Assembly (NCBI GenBank): GCA_902783575.1
Contig: CACZRP010000022.1
Coordinates: 1 to 57,725, forward strand
DNA length: 57,725 bases
Reading direction: 5' to 3'
Source: an uncultured Eubacteriales bacterium
Lineage (GTDB): Bacteria > Bacillota > Clostridia > Lachnospirales > Bianqueaceae
This document shows positions 1-34,895 of the stretch, in pieces (the stretch's first letter is position 1; each line of letters opens with the position of its first letter). The position numbers and the translations under genes were made by a program. Below the pieces are notes generated by a model. That model ran no database searches. It worked only from the letters and a program-made list of their open reading frames with translations, and was not told the DNA's origin.

Positions 1-118
1 GAGGTCACTTCATTTTTGAACACTTCTCCTCCCCGCAGGGGAGGAGGTCACTTCATTTTTGAACACTTCTCCTCCCCGCAGGGGAGGCAGTCACGTCCTT
101 TTTGAACACTTCTCCTCC
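1..118. repeat. Array D: palindrome-ended repeat units, 43-bp period, cut by the window edge
   Basis: Two identical 43-bp direct repeats (1-43 and 44-86) are followed by a diverged third copy. Read as palindrome-ended units they are 36 bp long at 40-75 and 83-118, with a first copy at 1-32 missing its first four bases. Each has arm GGAGGAG (GGAGGCA in the last), a 22-bp core containing TTTTTGAACA, and arm CTCCTCC. The 7-bp gaps (ccgcagg, ccgaagg) join neighbouring arms into a GC-rich hairpin, CTCCTCCCC-GCA-GGGGAGGAG. The array probably continues to the left of the window. No reading frame here looks like a gene. Confidence 0.75.
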
Positions 119-158
119 CCGAAGGGGAGTCCCCGAGGCCAAGCTTGCCTGTTTTGTG

Positions 159-532
159 GTAGGAAGTAATCAAGAAAACGACGCCACTTCCTACTTCATG
201 GTAGGAAGTGTGCCTCAAAAGCTGTGAACTTCCTACCCAACAAATTTCTGATGGTAGGAAGTGAACTGGAATTCAATCAATCTTCCTACTGCCAAGTAGG
301 AAAAGTGTTAAAAAATCTGCGGACTTCCTACCAGCAAGCCTTCTCAAAAAGATCCTGTGGTAGGAACTCATCAAAAAGACGGCAATACTTCCTATCAAGA
401 AGTAGGAAGAGTGTGCCAAAATCTATGGACTTCCTACCAGCTGGCGGCGAGCTGGTAGGAAGTCAAGTCGTCCTGCTGATAACTTCCTACCGGCAAGTAG
501 CAAGTCGTATCATTTTTCTGCGAACTTCCTAC
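159..532. repeat. Array C: eight 36-bp palindrome-ended units in four pairs
   Basis: Eight units of exactly 36 bp lie at 159-194, 201-236, 254-289, 296-331, 360-395, 402-437, 455-490 and 497-532. Each begins with GTAGGAA and ends with TTCCTAC (one mismatch in the right arm of unit 5 and in the left arm of unit 8); the 22-bp cores vary. Start-to-start distances are 42, 53, 42, 64, 42, 53, 42, which is symmetric about the centre and steps by 11 bp, close to one helical turn. Even-numbered units 2, 4 and 6 share a core beginning near GTG with a central AAAA. Units 1 and 5 share ATCAA-AA-ACG. Open frames across the array have repetitive, low-complexity products and are not credible genes. Confidence 0.85.
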
Positions 533-2240: not shown

Positions 2241-3446
2241 TTATCGTTTGTAAGTATCGAACCAGGCTCCGTTGGTGAAGTCCGGAATCATCACCGGGGC
2301 GCCGCCCTGGAGGATGGATTCCTCCGCCAGCACGCCGATGCTCATCCAGGCTGCCATGTCATAGACATCAATGGGGGGATTCGTCTGATCCCTGACGCTG
2401 TCAAAGAAAGCGCGGTCCACCAGATAATCCATGCCGCCATGGCCGCCCCGGACTCCATCATTCAGAAATTCCACCCAGGTGGGGGATTCATATTTTTCGC
2501 GGTAATCATCCGCGCAGCCCCAGTGCTTTCTCCAGTAGAAGGCTTCCATTTCGTCGTACTGGCCGTCCAGCCAGATGGACTGGTTATCTTCCTGGTAGAT
2601 GCCCCTGGTACCCTGTACCACCAGGCCGCGGCTGTAGAACCGGGGCAGGCTGGTATCCAGGGTCAGGGTAATGGTCTCGCCGTGGGCGCAGGTGATGATG
2701 GTGGTCACCACATCACCCTGGGCAAAGGGATAATGGGTCTGATCCCCTTCCGGGCCCTGGTCCTTCTGATTGTAGGCATTGAGACCCCGGGCGCAGGAAG
2801 CCTGGGCCACCAGCTTGACCATCCGGTTGCCGTGGCCAATGCCCAGCATCTGGGCGATGGGTCCCAGCTCATGGGTGGGATAGTTCTCGGTGTTTCTGTG
2901 GCGGTAGTTGGCGTTGCGGTAGTGACGGTTTTCCCGGCCGCGGCTGATCTCTTCTCTCAGGTCGTGGCGGTAGCCGCCCTCCAGATGCACCAGATCGCCG
3001 AAGACGCCCTGAGAAATCATGTTCATGATCATCATCTCATAGCGGCCGTAGCAGCAGTTTTCCAGAAGCATGCAGGGGACCTTTGTTTCCTCGTAGGTAT
3101 GCACCAGATCCCAGAGCTGCTGGATGCTGTAGGCGGCGCCTACCTCCACTCCCGGCCGGACGCCGGCCTTCATGGCCTCTATGGCCATGGGAATATGGGT
3201 TTCCCAGGAGGTGGTGATCATCACCGAGTCCAGGCCCGGCATGGCCAGAATCTCCCGGTAATCCAGGGTCTTCAGAGGTTCCCTGCCTTCCTTTTCCCGG
3301 ACGGCATCGGCCGCCCGCTGTACTCTGTCTTCAAACAGATCGCAGACGCCGATGACCTTCACATCCTCCATGGTGAGTACAACATCCCTCAGGAGGCTGT
3401 ATCCTCTGGAGCCCAGTCCAATGATGGCTGTGGTAATTGTTTTCAT
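2241..3446 (-). CDS. Gfo/Idh/MocA family oxidoreductase
   Basis: A 401-residue NAD(P)-dependent oxidoreductase of the glucose-fructose oxidoreductase / inositol dehydrogenase / MocA family. The N-terminus carries the Rossmann nucleotide-binding motif GLGSRG (residues 10-15) after a beta strand. It is followed by the dimerisation-type alpha/beta domain with HELGPIAQMLGI (about 192-203), resembling the family's HYIDLL-type substrate-site segment. Such enzymes oxidise sugars, inositols or amino-sugars, and some act as glycosidases of the GH109 type. It sits between an ABC exporter and a sugar symporter, so a role in sugar catabolism is likely, but the substrate is unknown. No signal peptide is visible. 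Confidence 0.88.
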   Translation of the reverse strand: MKTITTAIIGLGSRGYSLLRDVVLTMEDVKVIGVCDLFEDRVQRAADAVREKEGREPLKTLDYREILAMPGLDSVMITTSWETHIPMAIEAMKAGVRPGVEVGAAYSIQQLWDLVHTYEETKVPCMLLENCCYGRYEMMIMNMISQGVFGDLVHLEGGYRHDLREEISRGRENRHYRNANYRHRNTENYPTHELGPIAQMLGIGHGNRMVKLVAQASCARGLNAYNQKDQGPEGDQTHYPFAQGDVVTTIITCAHGETITLTLDTSLPRFYSRGLVVQGTRGIYQEDNQSIWLDGQYDEMEAFYWRKHWGCADDYREKYESPTWVEFLNDGVRGGHGGMDYLVDRAFFDSVRDQTNPPIDVYDMAAWMSIGVLAEESILQGGAPVMIPDFTNGAWFDTYKR

Positions 3447-3466
3447 GTCTTCACTCCCGTACAGTT

Positions 3467-5239
3467 TTATTCATTGCTCAGCTGTGAAGTATAGAGCTCG
3501 TAGTACAGTCCCTTCTTCTCCATGAGCTCGTCATGGCTGCCGCTCTCCACGATCCGGCCTTCGCTGATATACAGGATCCGGTCGCAGTCCTTGATGGTGG
3601 AAAGACGGTGGGCCACCACGAAGGAGGTCCGGGCCTTCAGCAGCTGTTTGATGCCTTCCTGCACCAGCAGCTCGGTGTTGGTATCGATGGAGGAGGTGGC
3701 CTCATCCAGGATCAGAATTCTCGGATCCGATAGCAGGGTCCGGGCGAAGGACAGCAGCTGCCGCTGACCGGCGGAAAGCATGTCGCCCCTCTCGTTGATC
3801 TCGGTGTAGTAGCCGTTGGGCATCCGGGAGATGAAGTCATCGGCGTATACCTGCTTGGCAGCGGCGATGCACTCCTCATCCGTGGCGTCCAGGCGGCCGT
3901 AGCGGATGTTGTCCATAATGGTGCCGGAGAAGATGAAGGTATCCTGCAGCATGATGCCCATCTGGGAACGGATGGATCGGAGGGTCGCCTTGGAAATGTC
4001 ATGGCCGTCAATCCTCACCTCGCCGCTTTTCAGGTTATAGAAGCGGGACACCAGGTTGATGATGGTGGACTTGCCGGCACCGGTGGGACCCACCAGGGCA
4101 ATGCTCTCTCCGGCGGGCACGTGGAAGCTGACATCCTTCAGAATGGGACGGTCCTTCTCATATTCAAAGACCACATGTTCGAAATCCACTTCACCCTTCA
4201 TGGGAGGCAGGTCCTCGGCGCCCTCCACATCGGTGACCGTCACAGGCTCGTCCATCAGCTGGAAAATACGTTCCAGATAGGAGACGGTATTGATCATCTG
4301 ATTGTAATAGTTGGACAGCTGCTGAATGGGACCCCAGAAGCGGTTGGCGTAGCTGGTCATGGCCACCAGCAGACCCACGGCGATGTAGTCCCTCAGGTAG
4401 ATGACGCCTACCAGATAGATGGCGTAAAAAACAGCCTTGGAAATAATCATGGTGAGGGGCCAGATGCTGTGGTTGATGGTCACGGCCTTCAGGTAGGCGC
4501 TGCGGGCATCCTGAGCCAGCTGCCGGTTAATGTTGCCGTTGAACTCTTCCCGGGCAAAGCTCTGGGTGACTCGCTCACCGTTGATGCTCTCCGCCAGATA
4601 GGCAGTGAAGTTGCTGTGCTTGTTGGCCTGCAGCTGCCAGGCGCGGCGCTGCTGGCGCTTGATGGAAAAGATATACAGAATGAATACCGGAAGACCCGCC
4701 AGCACCACCAGGGAAAGCCTGGGGGAAAGGATCACCATGAACACCGCGATCAGAATCAGTGAGAGGAACTGAAGGATGATGTTCACGATACCATTGGTCA
4801 GAAAGTCCGATACGGAGTTGACGTAGTTGACCACCCTTACCAGGATTTTGCCGTGGGGACGGGAGTCAAAGTAGTCAAAGGGAAGCTCCTGCAGATGAAC
4901 ATAGAGGTCCCGGCGGATATCCCGGATGATGGCCTGACCGGCCTGGGCGCTGCAGCGGGAACGGAATTTGTTGCAGAAGGCCTGGATAATGACAATGGCC
5001 ACAATGGCCAGACCCGCGATAATCAGTCCCTTCACGTCTCCGGCGGGGATCTGCTCATCAATGGCGTTGGCCGTGAACAGCGGCATCAGCAGGCCGCAGA
5101 GGATGGATACCGCGCTGAAGAAGAAGGCTCCGAAGAACCATTTCTTATAGCGCTTGATATAGACGAAGCTTCGTTTCAGGTGCGCGAAATTAAACTCGGT
5201 CTCCAGATTTTCATCGACATTGTATTTATTTCTGGCCAT
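3467..5239 (-). CDS. ABC exporter half-transporter, subunit with non-canonical LSAGQ signature
   Basis: A 590-residue half-transporter with an N-terminal six-helix transmembrane domain and a C-terminal ATPase domain. The ATPase has Walker A GPTGAGKST (about 383-391), the signature LSAGQRQLL (about 488) and Walker B ILILDEATSSID with the catalytic Glu present. The signature departs from LSGGQ. The start codon overlaps the stop of the upstream half-transporter by one base (TAATG), so the two are translationally coupled and almost certainly form a heterodimer. In such pairs (BmrC/BmrD, TM287/288) an altered signature in one subunit faces the degenerate Walker B of the other. The role is probably drug, lipid or peptide export; the substrate is unknown. 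Confidence 0.9.
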   Translation of the reverse strand: MARNKYNVDENLETEFNFAHLKRSFVYIKRYKKWFFGAFFFSAVSILCGLLMPLFTANAIDEQIPAGDVKGLIIAGLAIVAIVIIQAFCNKFRSRCSAQAGQAIIRDIRRDLYVHLQELPFDYFDSRPHGKILVRVVNYVNSVSDFLTNGIVNIILQFLSLILIAVFMVILSPRLSLVVLAGLPVFILYIFSIKRQQRRAWQLQANKHSNFTAYLAESINGERVTQSFAREEFNGNINRQLAQDARSAYLKAVTINHSIWPLTMIISKAVFYAIYLVGVIYLRDYIAVGLLVAMTSYANRFWGPIQQLSNYYNQMINTVSYLERIFQLMDEPVTVTDVEGAEDLPPMKGEVDFEHVVFEYEKDRPILKDVSFHVPAGESIALVGPTGAGKSTIINLVSRFYNLKSGEVRIDGHDISKATLRSIRSQMGIMLQDTFIFSGTIMDNIRYGRLDATDEECIAAAKQVYADDFISRMPNGYYTEINERGDMLSAGQRQLLSFARTLLSDPRILILDEATSSIDTNTELLVQEGIKQLLKARTSFVVAHRLSTIKDCDRILYISEGRIVESGSHDELMEKKGLYYELYTSQLSNE

Positions 5240-21144: not shown

Positions 21145-21494
21145 GGGGATGTCCGGTTTCGACGGGGGCTGTAGACATCTCGGGAGCCATCCGCAGGCTG
21201 GACTGCGTCATCAACCGGACCTAAATATAAACGCTAAAAATAACAACGCTTACGCGTTCGCAGCCTGATGGCTGTCATCCGACCTGAGGTTCCTGCGCCT
21301 CGGCCACCGGGTGTCATAGTAAGGCAGGGAACTTTCCGTCCTAAGCTTTGCGGGCGGATCAGATTCATGAAGCTACCGGAGCGTCTATCCTGTCGACGGG
21401 AGAGCGCCGAGGGAAACACAAAACATCGACTATGATGGTAGCTGGCCTGGGATCGAAGGGCTTTCGGACAGGAGTTCGATTCTCCTCATCTCCA
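21145..21494 (+). ncRNA. ssrA: Transfer-messenger RNA (tmRNA)
   Basis: The trans-translation RNA that rescues stalled ribosomes. The 5' end GGGGATGTCCGGTTTCGACG and the 3' T-arm AGGAG-TTCGATT-CTCCT followed by CATCTCC plus A pair to make the alanyl tRNA-like domain; CCA is not encoded. The tag frame begins at GCT (21233) and runs to TGA (21266-21268): AKNNNAYAFAA. The hydrophobic FAA end differs from the common LAA but keeps the protease-recognised alanine pair. A U-tract terminator follows at 21500-21533. Confidence 0.97.
21233..21268 (+). other. tmRNA proteolysis tag reading frame
   Basis: Resume codon GCT at 21233 then AAA AAT AAC AAC GCT TAC GCG TTC GCA GCC and TGA stop, giving AKNNNAYAFAA. 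A second sense codon context, with TAA at 21228-21230 just before the resume site, fits the usual tmRNA layout. Confidence 0.9.
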
Positions 21495-21499
21495 TTTCG

Positions 21500-25354: not shown

Positions 25355-27277
25355 TTATTCAGTTTTGCTTTCTGTCTGCTCGGCCGGAGCGGTTGTTTCA
25401 GCCGCAGCCGATGTGGGCTCTGCCGCTGCCGCCGGCTCCGCAGGTACCTTCATCTGCTCCAGCAGACCCATGAACTCGTCGCCGGTAATGGTCTCGTGAT
25501 CGTACAGATAGTTGGCCAGGCCGTTCAGTTCCTTCATATGAGTTTTCAGAAGATTCTCTGCCTTCTCATACTGAGTCCGGACCACTTCAATAACCTTCTT
25601 ATCAATGGCGGTGGAAGTATCCGGCGAGCAGGCCAGAGAAGCGTCGCCGCCCAGATACTGATTGCTGACGGTTTCCAGCGCCACCATACCAAACTCTTCC
25701 GTCATACCGAACCGGGTAACCATGGCCCGGGCCAGCTTGGTGGCCTGCTCAATATCATTGGAAGCACCAGTGGTGATGGAATGGAAGATCAGATCCTCGG
25801 CAATACGGCCGCCGGTAAGGGTGGCAATCTTGTTCTCGATCTCTTCCTTGCTCATCAGGTTATGCTCATCCTCGTCCACCTGCATGGTGTAACCCAGGGC
25901 ACCGGAGGTACGGGGAATAATGGTGATCTTGGTAACAGGAGCGGAATGGGACTGAAGAGCCGCCACCAGGGCATGGCCGATTTCATGATAGGCCACGATC
26001 CGCTTCTCCTTGTCGGAGAGAATGGCGTTTTTCTTCTGATAGCCGGCAATGACCACCTCCACGCTCTCCTCCAGGTCAGCCTGAGTGACAAACCTGCGTC
26101 CGGCGCGGACAGCCCGCAGGGCCGCCTCATTGATCATGTTGGCCAGCTCGGCGCCGGAAGCGCCCACCGCCATCCGGGCGATGGCATCGAAGTCCACATT
26201 GTCGCCCATCTTGACCTTCTTGGCATGAACCTTCAGGATATCCACACGGCCCTGAAGATCCGGCAGCTCCACGGGAATCCGGCGGTCAAAACGGCCGGGA
26301 CGCAGCAGCGCGGGGTCCAGGCTGTCGGGACGGTTGGTGGCGCCCAGGATGATGACACCCTTGCTGGCGTTGAAGCCATCCATCTCGGAAAGCAGCTGGT
26401 TCAGGGTCTGTTCCCGCTCGTCGTTGCCGCCGATGCCGGAAAGGCCGTCACGTTTTTTACCAATGGTATCGATCTCATCAATGAAGATGATACAGGGAGC
26501 CTTCTCGTTGGCCTGCTTGAACAGGTCACGGACCTTGGCGGCGCCCATACCTACGAACATTTCCACGAAATCCGAACCGGAAATAGAGAAGAAAGGCACG
26601 TTGGCCTCGCCGGCCACAGCCTTGGCCAGCAGAGTTTTACCGGTTCCGGGAGGGCCCACCAGCAGCGCGCCCTTGGGGATATTCGCGCCGATCTCGGCGT
26701 AGCGGCCGGGATTGTGCAGATAGTCAACGATTTCTGACAGCAGCTCCTTGGCTTCATCCTCGCCGGCCACATCGGAGAAACGGATGCCGTCGGTGGACTG
26801 AACGTAGATCTTGGCGTTGGATTTGCCGAAGGTCAACATATTGCCGCCCAGGCCCTCGCCGCCCATGCGCTTCATCAGCGAGTTCATGAGAAGCCGGCCC
26901 ACCACCATAAAGATCAGCAGCGGCACCACATAACCCAGCAGCAGGGTCATCCAGGGCGAGGCTTCCTGCTCGATGGTGGCGGTAAAGGTAACCCCCGCCG
27001 CATCCAGCCGGTTGATGAGATCCGGATCATCCATGATACCGGTCACATAATACCGGGCGGGGTCGGATTTATCCATGAAAAGGATCTGCTTTTCCTGGAT
27101 CTCAACTTCTTTGATTTTCCCATTCTCCAGCATGTCCAGGAATTCGGAGTAGGATGTCTCCTCAAACTGCCGGTTCATCAGCCTGGGCATGACGAAAAGG
27201 TTCAGTATCAGCATCGCCACTACAACGATGAGCATATAGTAGATAATTGGTCTTTTAGGGGTTTTGATTTCTTCCAC
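25355..27277 (-). CDS. ftsH: ATP-dependent zinc metalloprotease FtsH
   Basis: A 640-residue membrane-anchored AAA+ protease that degrades unassembled or damaged membrane proteins. Order: N-terminal helix ([17 protein letters not shown]), periplasmic-side domain, second helix, AAA+ domain with Walker A GPPGTGKT (about 208) and Walker [12 protein letters not shown], then the M41 zinc site HEIGH (about residue 430). The start is read as GTG at 27277: its G is the last base of the upstream MarR stop (TAGTG), with AGGAAGG upstream; a TTG at 27301 would lack a proper site. The C-terminus is alanine/glutamate-rich. Confidence 0.95.
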
Positions 27278-27714
27278 TAATCTGTCCTTCCTTTCGAGCA
27301 AAGATTGCGGTTGATCTTGCGGGCGATGTCCTCCAGCGTCCGGAGCTCCTCTTCGGAAATGCCGTTAAAAATGCATTTCATCAGCTCCGTCTGCCGCTTG
27401 CAGGCCACCAGCAGCACTTCATCCGCTTTTTCTTCGATCATCAAATGGACGACCCGGCGGTCGTCCGGGTCGGGATGACCGGAGATGTATTGCTTCTGAT
27501 ACAGGGAATCCACCGCTTTGGAAACACTGGCCTTGGACATATGTCTGGACTCGGCGATTTCCCGGGCGGTATCCCTGGCTTCATTTTCCAAAAACAGGAG
27601 CACCGAAAGCTCTGCGGCAGTCAGCTGACACTCGTCGGCGATGTCCACCAGCATCTGCTTGTAGTTTTTAGCGATTCCGCGCCCGGTGCATATCAATTCC
27701 ATTGAAAAATTCAT
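27277..27714 (-). CDS. MarR family regulator upstream of ftsH
   Basis: A 145-residue winged-helix regulator. The recognition region is ELSVLLFLENEARDTAREIA, then ESRHMSKASVSKAVDSLYQK and the wing GHPDPDDRRVVHL. No sensing Cys is near the N-terminus, unlike the OhrR-type gene at 24914. ATG 27714 has GGAGG five bases upstream; the open frame extends 36 codons but across the promoter. It overlaps ftsH (TAGTG), so repressor and protease are translationally coupled. What it senses is unknown. Confidence 0.87.
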   Translation of the reverse strand: MNFSMELICTGRGIAKNYKQMLVDIADECQLTAAELSVLLFLENEARDTAREIAESRHMSKASVSKAVDSLYQKQYISGHPDPDDRRVVHLMIEEKADEVLLVACKRQTELMKCIFNGISEEELRTLEDIARKINRNLCSKGRTD

Positions 27715-27838: not shown

Positions 27839-28172
27839 TCGAGGAAATTTCCTGCATTTTGCAGTTCTCCTCGAAACGCCATTTTTTGTCGAGGATATTT
27901 CTCGCAGGAGGCAGTCTTCCTCGACGTGATTGTTGTGGTTCGAGGAAATTTCAGCTGAGAGGCTATTTTCCTCGAACACGAATCCGCGGCACCTGACTAC
28001 TTTCGAGGATATTTCCTGTATAGCTGAAAAATCCTCGAAATCAGAAAGGCGTCGTCCAGCTGATAAAAAGCCGATCGAGGAAAAGTGCAAATACAAAGAA
28101 ATCTCCTCGACAAAAAACAGGCTAACTTCGAAGAATTCGAGGAGATCTGCTTATTTCAGGAAATCTCCTCGA
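27839..28172. repeat. Array A: six 36-bp units with arms TCGAGGA/TCCTCGA
   Basis: Six units of exactly 36 bp at 27839-27874, 27889-27924, 27940-27975, 28003-28038, 28075-28110 and 28137-28172. All twelve arms are perfect copies of TCGAGGA or its complement TCCTCGA. The 22-bp cores vary around ATTTCCTGTAT..GCAGTTT; units 1-4 read this on the plus strand, units 5 and 6 on the minus strand. Start-to-start spacing is 50, 51, 63, 72, 62 bp. Each unit could form a 7-bp stem with a 22-base loop or bind a dimer. Long frames across the array translate into repetitive charged peptides and are artefacts. Confidence 0.88.
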
Positions 28173-28281
28173 TGGCATCTGTTTTTGGTGTGGCGTCGCC
28201 TCTTTAAAAATCTTGTATCGCTTCAAAAAAATCAGGCGTCGCTTCTTCACGAATGACAGCCTTCTTGGCAGCTGATGCACG

Positions 28282-28615
28282 TAGTGATAAATTCCTGTAT
28301 TTTGCAGTTTCTCATGAAACGCTATTTTTTGTCATGAAGATTTCTCTGTACTGGCAGTATTTCATTACAGGATTTTTCTGAATAATGAAGATTTCAGGTA
28401 TATGGCAGTTTTTCATTATCATCAATCGGACCCGACTTGATTTTATCATGAAAAATTCCTGTATCGGTGAAAAGTTCATGACGCCAGGGCGGCCGCTCCC
28501 GGCTCTGAAAGAGAAGATAATGAGAAACTGCCAATATCAGGAAATCTTCATTACGAAAAATAAGCTGAAAAAGGAAAAGTGATGAAAAAGTGCATATATC
28601 AGGAAATATTCATTA
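28282..28615. repeat. Array B: six 36-bp units with arms TAATGAA/TCATGAA, same geometry as array A
   Basis: Six 36-bp units at 28282-28317, 28332-28367, 28383-28418, 28446-28481, 28518-28553 and 28580-28615. Arms are T(A/C)ATGAA and complement TTCAT(T/G)A, with a weaker first unit. Spacing is again 50, 51, 63, 72, 62 bp, so the array is array A shifted by 443 bp. Core identities unit by unit are 19, 14, 14, 17, 17 and 16 of 22 by hand count, and unit orientations match. The first gap differs by one base (aacgcCattttttg against aacgcTattttttg). Array B is thus a paralogue of A in which the arms alone changed together. Confidence 0.88.
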
Positions 28616-28955: not shown

Positions 28956-31379
28956 TTAGCGGACCAGCTTCTTCGCCATGCGAAGTACACGGGTGGCGTT
29001 GATTTCCACCTGTTTTCTGGGCAGCTCGCCGCTCTTCATGGCAGCCAGCACGGCCTTGTAGTCGTTCATTCCACCGGGCATGAACAGGTCGCCGCCCGCG
29101 GCAGCCACCTTCTGGGCCTTGGCGATCTCATACTTGGTATTCTTTTCGAAGGTGAAGTTGACCACCCAGTCGGTCATGACGATGCCCTGGTAGCCCCACT
29201 CGGCCCGCAGCACATCCTCGGTGAGGTCGCGGCGCTCGCTGGTATGGGTGCCATTCAGCAGGTTGTAGGAGGTCATCAGTGCATGGGGCTGGGAATCCTT
29301 GACGCAGATTTCAAAGCCCTTCAGGTAGATCTCTCTCATGGCGCGTTCGCTGACCAGTGAGTTGTTGGTATAACGGGAGGTTTCCTGGTTGTTGGCGGCA
29401 AAATGCTTGATGGTGGTGCCGCAGCCGGGATGCTTTTGCACGCCCTTTGTAATGCCGGCGGCGAAGATACCGCTGACCAGGGGATCCTCGGAGTAATACT
29501 CGAAGTTACGGCCGCAAAGAATGCTGCGGTGAATATTCAGGGCAGGAGCCAGCCACAGATGAACGCCAAACATTACCATCTCTTCGCCCACCACGTCGCC
29601 GCAGACCTCGGCCACCACAGGGTTGAAGCTCTGGGCAATGGCAGTGCCGATGGGAATGGCGGTGCAGTAATGCTCCACCGTCTGAGCATCCTTCGGAGGC
29701 TTCTTGCTAAAGAGCTTCATGCCGGCGGTGAGAACCTTGGGCATGAAGACTGCCATGCTTTCCGGAATCATGCTGCCTTCGGTGTAGACCTTCTTGCCAT
29801 CGGTCTTGTAGGTTTTCTGAATACGGATGCCGGCAGGGCCATCAGCCATAACCATCACCGGGAAGCCCTTGTCCTTCAGCATGGAGGTGGTTTCACCGGC
29901 GGCGCCGGGTACTGACTGAGAAGCGTTGCCGATAACATTCAGCATACCGCCTTTGGGATTGAAGCCACCCACATTCATGTAGGCCAGCTCTTCATCGGAC
30001 AGGGCAGCCACTTCCGGATCCACAGGAAGCTCGGGATCATAAGCAATGGTTTCAGTCTCGATGACGGAAGGATCCATGGACAGGATGGGGGTGTTCACGG
30101 GAACAGCCTCTTCCCAGGTCTTCTCAGGACGCCAGTCTTCGAAATCAGGGGTGCCCAGGCTGTTTCTGACCTTGCGGACAATGACAGTCTCGGGAAGCTC
30201 TACGGTAGCGGCCACTTCCGTGGCTCGGCTGCAGCTGCCCACCCGGAGAATATAGTTTCCGGCTTCCAGCACATAGGCGGCGGAAGCGGGATTGTAGGAG
30301 CAGATATCGGACATCTTGAAGCAGGCTGTCACTTCCTTGCATTCTCCGGGAAGAAGCTCCGGAGATTTCTCGAAGGCAGAGAGCACCTGATAGGGCTGAT
30401 CCAGCTCACCCTGGGGCTTGGTCACATAAACCTGCACCGTTTCCTTGCCGGCGAAGCTGCCGATATTCTTTACGGGAACGGTAACAGAGACGGTTTCACC
30501 GTCCAGAGAAGCCTTGGCATCGCCCAGCTCGAACTCGGTATAGGAAAGACCGAAGCCGAAGGGGAATTCGGGCTCGACGCCCACGGAATCAAAGTAACGG
30601 TAGCCCACATAGATACCTTCGTTGTAGCGGGTATCCTGGCGGTCGCCGAAGGAACCGATCTTCGCGTACTGATCCCAGGCGGTCCAGGTGGTGGTCAGCT
30701 TGCCGGAGGGATAAGCTTTGCCCAGCAGCAGCTGTCCCAGAATATAGCCGGTTTCCACGCCCAGCTGGGAAAGAATCAGGATATTGCCAACCTCCAGCAC
30801 CGGGGTCAGGTCCACGGGGCCGCCCACATTTAGCACCAGAATAAAGTTCTCATATTTTTTGTTGAGCTTCAGAATATCGCGGACTTCCGTCTCGGTAAGG
30901 AGCACGTCACCTTCCACCGCCTGACGGTCGTTGCCCTCGCCGCAGATGCGGGACAGCACATAAACCGCGGTATCGCCCTCGCCTTCCAGCGGCAGATAAT
31001 ACTCAGGCTCAGGCATTACGGCGCCCATGCCCTCCACAATGGGATTGGTATGTTTGGCTTTGGCCCGATCGCGGATATCCTGAACGAACTGGATCTGAGC
31101 CTGCTTACGCACTTCGTCGTAGGCATCCAGCCAGTCGCCGGAGGTAATTTCAAAACCGCATCTCTTCAGGCCTTTCTCCACGTTGATGGAGAAACGGGAG
31201 TTCACCTCGCCGGAGCCGGTGCCGCCCTTCAGGGTATAGCGGGCGCCGCTGCCGAACAAAGCCAGGTTTCCTGCTTCCTTCAGGGGAAAGCGGCCGTTCT
31301 TTTTCAGCAGCACGGTGCATTCGGGCAGATACTGACGAAGTCTTTTCAGATGTTCACGTTCGTAAGCATAAAGTTCCAT
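28956..31379 (-). CDS. Glycoside hydrolase family 3 beta-glucosidase with inverted domain order
   Basis: An 807-residue GH3 enzyme lacking a signal peptide, so acting inside the cell on short glycosides. Normally GH3 runs TIM barrel, then alpha/beta sandwich, then fibronectin III-like domain. Here the sandwich comes first (about 1-250), then the FnIII-like part with SYTEFELGDA and the VKNIGSFAGKETVQVYV stretch (about 265-340), and the (beta/alpha)8 domain last. The nucleophile Asp737 is in GIVMTDWV. This permuted order is known for Ruminococcus albus and Butyrivibrio fibrisolvens enzymes. RBS taggaggcaaat precedes ATG. Confidence 0.93.
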   Translation of the reverse strand: MELYAYEREHLKRLRQYLPECTVLLKKNGRFPLKEAGNLALFGSGARYTLKGGTGSGEVNSRFSINVEKGLKRCGFEITSGDWLDAYDEVRKQAQIQFVQDIRDRAKAKHTNPIVEGMGAVMPEPEYYLPLEGEGDTAVYVLSRICGEGNDRQAVEGDVLLTETEVRDILKLNKKYENFILVLNVGGPVDLTPVLEVGNILILSQLGVETGYILGQLLLGKAYPSGKLTTTWTAWDQYAKIGSFGDRQDTRYNEGIYVGYRYFDSVGVEPEFPFGFGLSYTEFELGDAKASLDGETVSVTVPVKNIGSFAGKETVQVYVTKPQGELDQPYQVLSAFEKSPELLPGECKEVTACFKMSDICSYNPASAAYVLEAGNYILRVGSCSRATEVAATVELPETVIVRKVRNSLGTPDFEDWRPEKTWEEAVPVNTPILSMDPSVIETETIAYDPELPVDPEVAALSDEELAYMNVGGFNPKGGMLNVIGNASQSVPGAAGETTSMLKDKGFPVMVMADGPAGIRIQKTYKTDGKKVYTEGSMIPESMAVFMPKVLTAGMKLFSKKPPKDAQTVEHYCTAIPIGTAIAQSFNPVVAEVCGDVVGEEMVMFGVHLWLAPALNIHRSILCGRNFEYYSEDPLVSGIFAAGITKGVQKHPGCGTTIKHFAANNQETSRYTNNSLVSERAMREIYLKGFEICVKDSQPHALMTSYNLLNGTHTSERRDLTEDVLRAEWGYQGIVMTDWVVNFTFEKNTKYEIAKAQKVAAAGGDLFMPGGMNDYKAVLAAMKSGELPRKQVEINATRVLRMAKKLVR

Positions 31380-33300: not shown

Positions 33301-34134
33301 TTATGCTGCCGCTGTATAGCTTTCATGGTATTCAACTGGAGTCATTAAATGAAGTTTTCTCTGAATCCGCTCTGTATTGTAATAAGTGATATAGTCTTCA
33401 ATCGTTTTGACTAGAGTTGCTTTTTCTGTGAACCGCTTTCCATAGTAGGTTTCCCGCTTCAGGATTCCCCAGAACCCCTCCATGGGACCATTGTCGATAC
33501 AGTGGGCTACCCTGGACATGCTCTGTTTCATATGGTGTTTCTTAAGCTTTGTACAGAATTGCTTGCTTGTGTACTGAAACCCTCTATCACTATGGAACAA
33601 TGGATGTGCATCTGGTTCAACAGCAACGGCTTCATCGAAAGTGTTCATGACAAGAGGATTGTCATTGTGATCACCGATTTTAAAGGCAACGATCCTCCGG
33701 TCATAAAGATCCAGAATGGCGCTCAAGTATACCTTATGGACCTCGATGCCGATGTAATACTTGAACTCTGTCACATCGGTCAACCACTTCTCATTCGGTG
33801 CATCTGCATGAAAGTCACGATTCAGATAGTTCCTGGCGATGTGCGCCGGATCGTAACTGCTTTTGGTGCAGCTTTTCGGCTTCCACTTGATTACAGACTG
33901 GATTCGTTCCTTGCGGCAGATTCTCAAAACCCTCTTGTCATTCACTGTGATGCCATGCTTTTTGTCCAGTTCATCCCTAATCCGTCGATATCCCATATCC
34001 GGATGCTTTTCATGAATGGCTTTGATCTTCTCAGCGATTTCTTTGTTGTACCTCTCACTAAAACTGACAGGATCCTTCAACCAGCGATAGTAAGCACTGC
34101 GCGAGAGGTGCAGGTACCCACAAAGTCTTTTCAC
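33301..34134 (-). CDS. IS3-family transposase OrfB (DDE integrase)
   Basis: The catalytic half of the transposase. The HTH_21 segment DMGYRRIRDELDKKHGI leads to the rve integrase fold with Asp in WLTDVTEFKY, Asp in FHSDRGFQYTS and Glu in GPMEGFWGILKRE, the DDE triad; the C-terminal TERIQRKLHLMTPVEYH is typical. It is 277 residues from the listed GTG/ATG start, but the frame is open back to the slippery run at 34230-34236. The product is expected as an OrfA-OrfB fusion after -1 frameshifting rather than as a separate start. Confidence 0.93.
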   Translation of the reverse strand: MKRLCGYLHLSRSAYYRWLKDPVSFSERYNKEIAEKIKAIHEKHPDMGYRRIRDELDKKHGITVNDKRVLRICRKERIQSVIKWKPKSCTKSSYDPAHIARNYLNRDFHADAPNEKWLTDVTEFKYYIGIEVHKVYLSAILDLYDRRIVAFKIGDHNDNPLVMNTFDEAVAVEPDAHPLFHSDRGFQYTSKQFCTKLKKHHMKQSMSRVAHCIDNGPMEGFWGILKRETYYGKRFTEKATLVKTIEDYITYYNTERIQRKLHLMTPVEYHESYTAAA

Positions 34135-34193
34135 GGGATAGATTTTTTCTTCAGACAGCTCTTTGATCGCCTGATATTTGTATAGATGTCGAG

Positions 34194-34895
34194 TCAGAGA
34201 TAGCGATCTTTCATCTCTAACTCTCTGACTTTTTTTAGCAAGTCATTCTCCATCTGTAAATTCCGGTTCTTTCGTTCTAACTCTGCAATCCTATCCCGGA
34301 GTTCCTCCTCGGGTGTTCTGAACGGCTGCGTGCCTGCACGTCGTCCACGCCGATCTTCCAGACCGGCGGTTCCCATCTTTTCATACCGCAATACCCAGTT
34401 ACGGACCTGTTGGTAAGAGCAGTTATATTTCAGAGCCATTTCTCCATAGTTTTTATCATGGGAAAGACAGTCCTGTACGATTTCTAAACGTTCTTCCGGC
34501 GTCGTTTGTCGGGCTTTTCTCATGTAGCTCCCCCCTCCGCTTCCGCGTGATTTGATCTCTCCATGAGTATTATACCGTTTTATCCACTTTTGAAGAATAC
34601 TTTTGCTTCTGATTCCGTACTTTTCACATATGTTCTGCTGACTGCCTTTTCCATCAAGATAATCATTTACGGCGTTGATCATTATCTCATTAGAATAGGT
34701 CTTGTTTGATTTCTGATCTAAAAGCCCCGATGGGCCTTCGTTTTTATAGATGCTGACCCATTTCATGAATGTATCTGTGCCATTTCCTGAAAGCCCCGCA
34801 ATTCTCCCGGCTTCAAAAACACCTATCTCATTACACAGATACCTTTCGACCAACTCAACCTTAAGAACTGGATCGATCTGACTTTTCCTAGACAT
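34194..34895 (-). CDS. IS3-family transposase OrfA (double HTH)
   Basis: The DNA-binding half, 233 residues, with two helix-turn-helix regions: YLCNEIGVFEAGRIAGLSGN near the start, and MALKYNCSYQQVRNWVLRYE (about 150). A leucine-zipper-like helix at the C-terminus (ELERKNRNLQMENDLLKK) is typical of IS3 OrfA. At the end the codons run CTA AAA AAA GTC: a run of seven A (34230-34236) before G matches the A_AAA_AAG heptamer of IS3 -1 frameshifting. OrfB's frame is offset by -1, which agrees. Confidence 0.9.
   Translation of the reverse strand: MSRKSQIDPVLKVELVERYLCNEIGVFEAGRIAGLSGNGTDTFMKWVSIYKNEGPSGLLDQKSNKTYSNEIMINAVNDYLDGKGSQQNICEKYGIRSKSILQKWIKRYNTHGEIKSRGSGGGSYMRKARQTTPEERLEIVQDCLSHDKNYGEMALKYNCSYQQVRNWVLRYEKMGTAGLEDRRGRRAGTQPFRTPEEELRDRIAELERKNRNLQMENDLLKKVRELEMKDRYL
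34229..34236 (-). promoter_or_regulatory. Programmed -1 frameshift site of the IS element
   Basis: Seven A followed by G on the minus strand (A AAA AAG), near the end of OrfA, in the correct phase to fuse OrfA to OrfB. Confidence 0.75.

Follow-up and report, generated by a model that had tools for sequence, protein, structure and literature searches.

Results

Two arrays with one geometry at an intergenic locus

The window, that is, the whole stretch of 57,725 nucleotides analysed here, belongs to a draft metagenome-assembled clostridial genome (the home genome, G000; 2.5 Mb, 126 contigs, 86% complete). Two repeat arrays lie in it just upstream of a MarR-type regulator gene (27277..27714, minus strand; Pfam MarR_2, 5.9e-13) and 3' of a long ORF (an ORF call at 28956..31379, minus strand), which we read as a putative glycoside hydrolase family 3 (beta-glucosidase-like) gene. 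Array A occupies positions 27839-28172 and array B positions 28282-28615, each with six 36-bp units in which 7-bp arms surround a 22-bp core. The units of array A at 27839..27874 (arms TCGAGGA/TCCTCGA, 22-bp core), 27889..27924, 27940..27975 and 28003..28038, the last with a near-symmetric core, are in plus orientation, and those at 28075..28110 and 28137..28172 are in minus orientation, with reversed cores; at the sixth unit the homology with most other copies of the array stops at about the outer arms. Array B has plus units at 28282..28317 (arms of the T(A/C/G)(A/G)TGA class), 28332..28367, 28383..28418 and 28446..28481, and minus units at 28518..28553 and 28580..28615. Elsewhere in the window there are a tmRNA gene (21145-21497; Rfam RF00023, 150 bits) and two ORFs (33301-34895) that, by translation alone, presumably resemble an IS3-type transposase pair.

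The sequence-only reading of this DNA had described two arrays of identical geometry, and the unit spacings of 50, 51, 63, 72 and 62 bp, the offset of 443 bp and the common unit orientations all proved exact. So did the likeness of the cores (19, 14, 14, 17, 17 and 16 of 22 bases identical between A and B) and the perfection of the arms in A (12/12), and just 5-8 of the 14 arm bases per unit match between the arrays. The arm switch itself had been described as concerted, from TCGAGGA in A to T(A/C)ATGAA in B; the A word stands as given, whereas the B word is looser than claimed, T(A/C/G)(A/G)TGA(A/G/T), with frequent mismatches between paired arms inside units.

Dispersed copies keep their arms

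In the home genome class A has about 19 arrays, some of them truncated where a contig ends, and class B has 11; since several contigs (C97, C107, C108, C22 and C92) break inside arrays, these copy numbers are probably underestimates. Unit spacing is identical in nearly every copy of A or B, apart from differences of a single base and one deletion of 11 bp, roughly a helix turn. Homology between copies stops at about the outer arms, and some pairs have longer duplicated flanks in common. The pattern TCGAGGA-N22-TCCTCGA, with up to two mismatches, occurs at 110 sites of the genome vs 11 for a reversed control pattern. Within class A, 202/210 arms are perfect, no indel occurs inside the units of the 16 full arrays, and copies compared in pairs differ by 1.5% in their arms, by 31% in cores and by 42% in spacers, a contrast that suggests constraint on the boxes of every copy. 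Arms diverge by 2.7% in class C (27% and 31% elsewhere in the arrays) and by 12% in class B (25% and 31% elsewhere). The idea of a duplicated array in which only the recognition ends diverged is not supported: within a class the ends are conserved, and it is cores and spacers that diverge, by 31-42%. Arrays A and B are two dispersed families with one geometry, not one local arm-switched duplication.

Several arrays are found on the 3' side of genes. In the closest relative, no array occupies the orthologous position behind tex. Compared with the closest congener (L012 vs L159, G003:C82), the home genome carries the gene that follows tex in inverted orientation, and A and B arrays stand at the junction, a possible array-associated rearrangement. 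Two other repeats adjoin the arrays. One is a terminator-like hairpin, GGGGCGAAG...CTTCGCCCC followed by T-runs, next to arrays of classes C, D and A/B (window ~630-680; L135 ~6430; L012 ~2510). The other is a long nested palindromic repeat with inverted GCCTTGACAG and CTTGTGGC segments, next to arrays and to the nuclease-like genes described below (L012 ~3510-3690; L014 ~2150-2330; L332 ~3340-3500; L329 ~3420-3570), and it looks like another dispersed repeat family.

The same plan with other words

Near its start the window holds two further classes: a class E array at 1..135 (boxes GGGGAGG/CCTCCCC at a 43-bp period, cut by the contig end) and a class C array at 159..532 (eight units GTAGGAA-N22-TTCCTAC, spaced 42, 53, 42, 64, 42, 53 and 42 bp). 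The two form one joined E-C unit at most copies (window 1-532; L138-L140; L091). The home genome also has words D (TGTCACA), F (TGGTGCTA), G (CGAAGA) and H (TGTACACA), class G being off-plan in that each half-array holds direct repeats of the box, and only boxes of opposite halves face each other. Congeners use GGATCA, TGATGCC and CCCCAA (G003), TAGCAAG, TATACA and AAAGCA (G005) and GAGATA (G006). The dispersed arrays of G003 carry GGATCA and TGATGCC, words that also stand beside readers, the nuclease-like proteins described below, elsewhere in that genome. A genome of another genus of the same family (G012) has TCAAGGA arrays at 43-bp spacing. Our generic array scanner returned no array in shuffled sequence (3 x 1.25 Mb).

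Recurrence of the exact A/B spacing in related genomes, as the sequence-only reading anticipated, was not observed; what recurs there is the 7-22-7 plan and the helical spacing, with other words. A covariance model of the unit, run on 19 genomes of the family and 392 of the order, recovered the home genome and one related array only, the TCAAGGA array of G012. The class A pattern is absent from a set of 84,980 genomes, from which the home genome or very near records may be left out, and from IMG/VR, and a DNA search of a phage collection with the arrays gave no match. Every copy of a class keeps one word, and different classes and species use different words. The proposal that the arms act as an identity code holds in this form: the word is constant per class and differs between classes and species, each with its own protein gene.

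Arms are conserved as words on phased DNA

Two ways of reading the arms had been proposed, by base pairing or by a protein dimer. In class B, where arms vary most, the paired arms of 64 units form 351/448 Watson-Crick pairs vs 352.5 with partners dealt randomly; without covariation between paired arms, each box is conserved as a word, and pairing is refuted. Protein recognition of the boxes on double-stranded DNA is the half of the proposal that we favour, on the helical phasing found in two data sets. The two boxes of a unit are mostly 28-30 bp apart (33 in class E), and from unit to unit the distances are about 41-43, 50-53, 61-65, 72-73, 83 and 91 bp. In the home family, 16 classes gave a best R of 0.81 at 10.1 bp (p<5e-5 vs uniform distances), and 19 intervals from a second family (f6) gave R=0.87-0.88 at 10.3-10.5 bp (p<5e-5), the intervals being taken by hand from the output of the scanner, which leaves unit-to-unit distance unconstrained. 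Proteins lined up along one face of B-DNA would need just such a quantisation, in steps of about 10.3 bp.

No Rfam family was matched at gathering score by the arrays. A coding explanation was rejected because unit spacings are not multiples of 3, and CRISPR arrays because units stand in both orientations, cores are diverged and spacers are homologous between copies.

A gene family linked to the arrays

Four arrays with four words in four genomes all adjoin one protein family, which supplied the starting profile for the putative readers of the words, called readers below. That four-protein profile found seven members in the home genome and was present in 13/13 home-family genomes tested; outside the home family, 1/8 genomes had members. 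In a wider search 21/146 genomes had the family, all of them in the home family (f1) or in f6. Six of the seven home paralogs stand beside an array, with six different words (C66-A, C85-E, C21-H, C84-F, C90-D and C83-G); the candidate class A reader (G000:C66:6496-7284) is 86 bp from a class A array. Across the home family and one outside genome, 21/41 genes lie within 800 bp of an array that passes strict scoring, where 0.68 would be expected from the background, and four further gene-array pairs were recognised by eye in the home-family set. The linkage was replicated in f6 at loci chosen by protein match alone, 17/30 genes having an array within 800 bp vs 0.96 expected from a background of 99 kb lying more than 1.5 kb away with two arrays, one of which carries TAGTCA, a word that also accompanies a different reader in that genome. 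The named genomes searched (1.33 Mb, mostly Lachnospiraceae) contain one family gene and one array that is not low-complexity, and the two are neighbours (Candidatus Mediterraneibacter guildfordensis, L284). A co-occurring DNA-binding or recombinase gene had been suggested earlier; the linked family is PD-(D/E)XK nuclease-like, and Y1 transposase genes stand without A-F arrays.

An array that passes the strict scan is missing at half of the reader genes and, in two genera (g2, g5), at most genes of distant subfamilies. Readers for words B and C were not found in the 86%-complete home genome. At three loci (L387, L359 and L332) the reader gene stands between arrays that share one word, a transposon-like outline. 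Three genomes (G009, G010 and G011) have distant nuclease-family members, 11-21 matches per genome, mostly without clear arrays among the few flanks examined.

The candidate reader protein

Readers have about 265 amino acids and a C-terminal PD-(D/E)XK/Vsr-like domain. The model of the class A reader (mean pLDDT 87) shows a helix, a three-strand sheet, a long helix, a linker and the PD-(D/E)XK domain. Profiles of the PADLOC phage-defence candidate PDC-S68 match the nuclease domain in 27/27 members (1.4e-28 for the class A reader), covering only the last ~130 positions of a model of ~1,220 residues. The nearest solved structures are the catalytic domain of I-Bth0305I (3r3p; Z 8.4, at the edge of the comparison tool's own caution limit, over 89 residues with rmsd 2.7), Bax1 (8.0) and Vsr (6.9). 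Invariant residues are RSKSE (E161), PD (D191), E206 and H207; the usual catalytic lysine position does not hold a lysine, which makes nuclease activity uncertain. Modelled by itself, the N-terminal domain (pLDDT 95) matched no known fold convincingly, and an arm-type integrase domain (3jtz) was rejected as a weak match (E 0.43). Searches of Pfam, NCBIfam and PADLOC gave no ParB match for the family. Plasmid and phage records hold the nuclease domain alone and no full-length members, and this domain is also found in AAA-ATPase- and RecQ-annotated proteins.

The word follows the protein

Among 31 readers with arrays, 6/7 same-word pairs are 86-99% identical in protein sequence, and no different-word pair exceeds 54%, the range from 55% to 85% being empty. 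Mean protein identity is 83% for same-word pairs vs 29% for the others (permutation p=2e-4). The one exception is TACGGA, beside proteins that are 34% identical. Since orthologous loci inherit their flanks, word sharing alone is not proof. Between orthologs in two species, boxes of the word TAGCAAG changed at 1/66 positions vs 64/201 in the remainder, and those of CACGTA at 1/48 vs 45/197; for ATACCA the contrast is weak (3/62 vs 23/280). Diverged readers showed a gradient of word similarity (Mantel r=0.15, p=0.01), which was set aside as probably driven by one close pair.

Discussion

The explanation that we favour, and consider likely as a whole, is that the arrays are double-stranded DNA platforms for paralogous, word-specific reader dimers that are helically aligned. 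It builds on computed observations, namely the words, their geometry and phasing, the conservation of the boxes, the gene-array linkage, the co-inheritance of word and protein and the probable fold class of the nuclease domain. From these we infer that the reader binds the boxes, with dimers occupying a unit and lining up along the array, and that its N-terminal domain reads the word and dimerises. Each 7-bp arm would be a half-site, and two inverted half-sites about 29 bp apart would form the unit for one dimer; with units whole helix turns apart (4, 5, 6, 7 and so on), the dimers would be aligned on one face of the DNA. Several paralogs per genome, usually one per word, would serve such platforms, commonly from beside an array of the same word, with further arrays of each word scattered in intergenic DNA. 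Arrays A and B may then be seen as two word classes with a common geometry, and their apparent concerted switch would be the expected outcome if the two arrays answer to two readers. The C66 gene is the probable class A reader, and class B may be a class whose reader is lost, which would fit its boxes, the loosest of all, and the fact that no reader was found for it in the incomplete genome.

What the nuclease does is less certain. The lineage-specific scatter of the arrays and the array-less tex site in the closest relative suggest that arrays spread. We regard it as about evenly balanced whether the nuclease lets them do so by cutting and copying, as the RAYT protein does for REPINs; spreading of this kind would explain the lineage-specific dispersed copies, and in RAYT-REPIN systems a single-copy protein can sustain such repeat populations (PMC8049555, PMC2817692). 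The fuller proposal, which we hold tentatively and put a little below an even chance, is an address system in which PD-(D/E)XK paralogs recognise private 7-bp words as phased dimers and their nuclease spreads or maintains the arrays, so that word and protein would switch together and word populations would turn over between species.

Among the alternatives, the one that survives best is a chromosome-organising, partition-like or regulatory platform, in which the reader would be static, its nuclease inactive or secondary, and the arrays kept by host selection. The boxes of fixed, orthologous arrays are under purifying selection, and this conservation is equally compatible with a static platform; the usual catalytic position has no lysine, and the phasing and the 43-bp periods recall the F-plasmid centromere, with its twelve 43-bp repeats holding ParB sites (PMC8465637). 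However, words differ between congeners and between classes, copies are lineage-specific, the closest relative lacks the array after tex, and many words per genome are hard to square with one architectural role, so that we find this reading possible but rather unlikely. Like sopC/parS-type centromeres of ParABS systems, the arrays combine short inverted boxes, whole-turn periods (42-43 bp among them) and a neighbouring gene for the presumed binder; unlike those centromeres, they are chromosomal, with many copies and many words per genome, and no ParB or ParA homology was seen.

A role in defence, or a toxin-like one, in which the nuclease would attack invading DNA or be restrained by binding its own arrays, seems improbable to us. 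It would draw on the resemblance of the nuclease domain to PDC-S68 and on the occurrence of this domain in AAA-ATPase- and RecQ-annotated proteins. Against this, the likeness to PDC-S68 (1.4e-28) is limited to the homologous C-terminal nuclease domain, the PDC-S68 models having ~1,220 residues vs ~265 in a reader family that is linked to box arrays; moreover, these words are host motifs of 7 bp, and none of the flanks examined showed a recognisable partner gene or defence island. The solved structures that come closest, those of the EDxHD homing endonuclease I-Bth0305I and of Vsr/Bax1, concern the C-terminal domain. I-Bth0305I dimerises on a very long DNA target of nearly 60 bp (PMC3943268). 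The readers differ from it in having no intron host and another N-terminal domain, and they would target arrays instead of a single site in a gene.

Ordinary REP/BIME palindromes, that is, hairpins mobilised as single-stranded DNA by a RAYT (Y1 HuH) protein, are a very unlikely account of these arrays. The outward picture is certainly that of RAYT-REP, REPIN and BIME systems: palindromes dispersed in intergenic DNA in alternating orientation, with one partner gene family (PMC2817692, PMC8049555). The likeness goes further, since in both cases a chromosomal gene is flanked by its own word, several gene-word pairs occur per genome, and gene and word are co-inherited; one RAYT-like Y1 gene is present in the home genome (G000:C32). 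Nevertheless, the arms do not covary, in contrast to the complementary changes reported for REPs (PMC2817692), none of the four Y1 genes is accompanied by an array of words A-F, and helical phasing would be left unexplained. The linked reader is a PD-(D/E)XK protein and not a Y1 HuH transposase, and the units are not hairpins selected for pairing but parts of multi-unit arrays with fixed geometry and whole-turn spacing. A non-coding RNA, transcribed from the arrays and folded into hairpins, is scarcely credible: whole arrays have strong predicted folding and several lie 3' of genes, but there is no covariation and no Rfam match, the units are helically phased, and the boxes are conserved in sequence rather than in pairing.

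Since the hallmarks of RAYT-REP systems (a Y1 partner and a hairpin maintained by pairing) were not found and no ParB-type reader was seen, the platform of paralogous reader dimers that we favour would be a categorically new system. No published description of such arrays or readers was found in the open-licence literature, against which the arrays are apparently a large, undescribed kind of bacterial repeat. The gene-plus-address system, replicated in two families, connects small orphan nucleases with dispersed palindromic repeats, until now known separately, and an uncharacterised, multi-copy protein family gains a testable function. With its many natural protein-word pairs of one geometry, the system offers a series in which to follow how small DNA-binding domains change specificity. 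It also adds an independent test case to RAYT-REPIN, the one studied so far, for the persistence of sequence populations within a bacterial genome. Many private address codes of this kind, between protein and DNA, seem to exist in bacteria.
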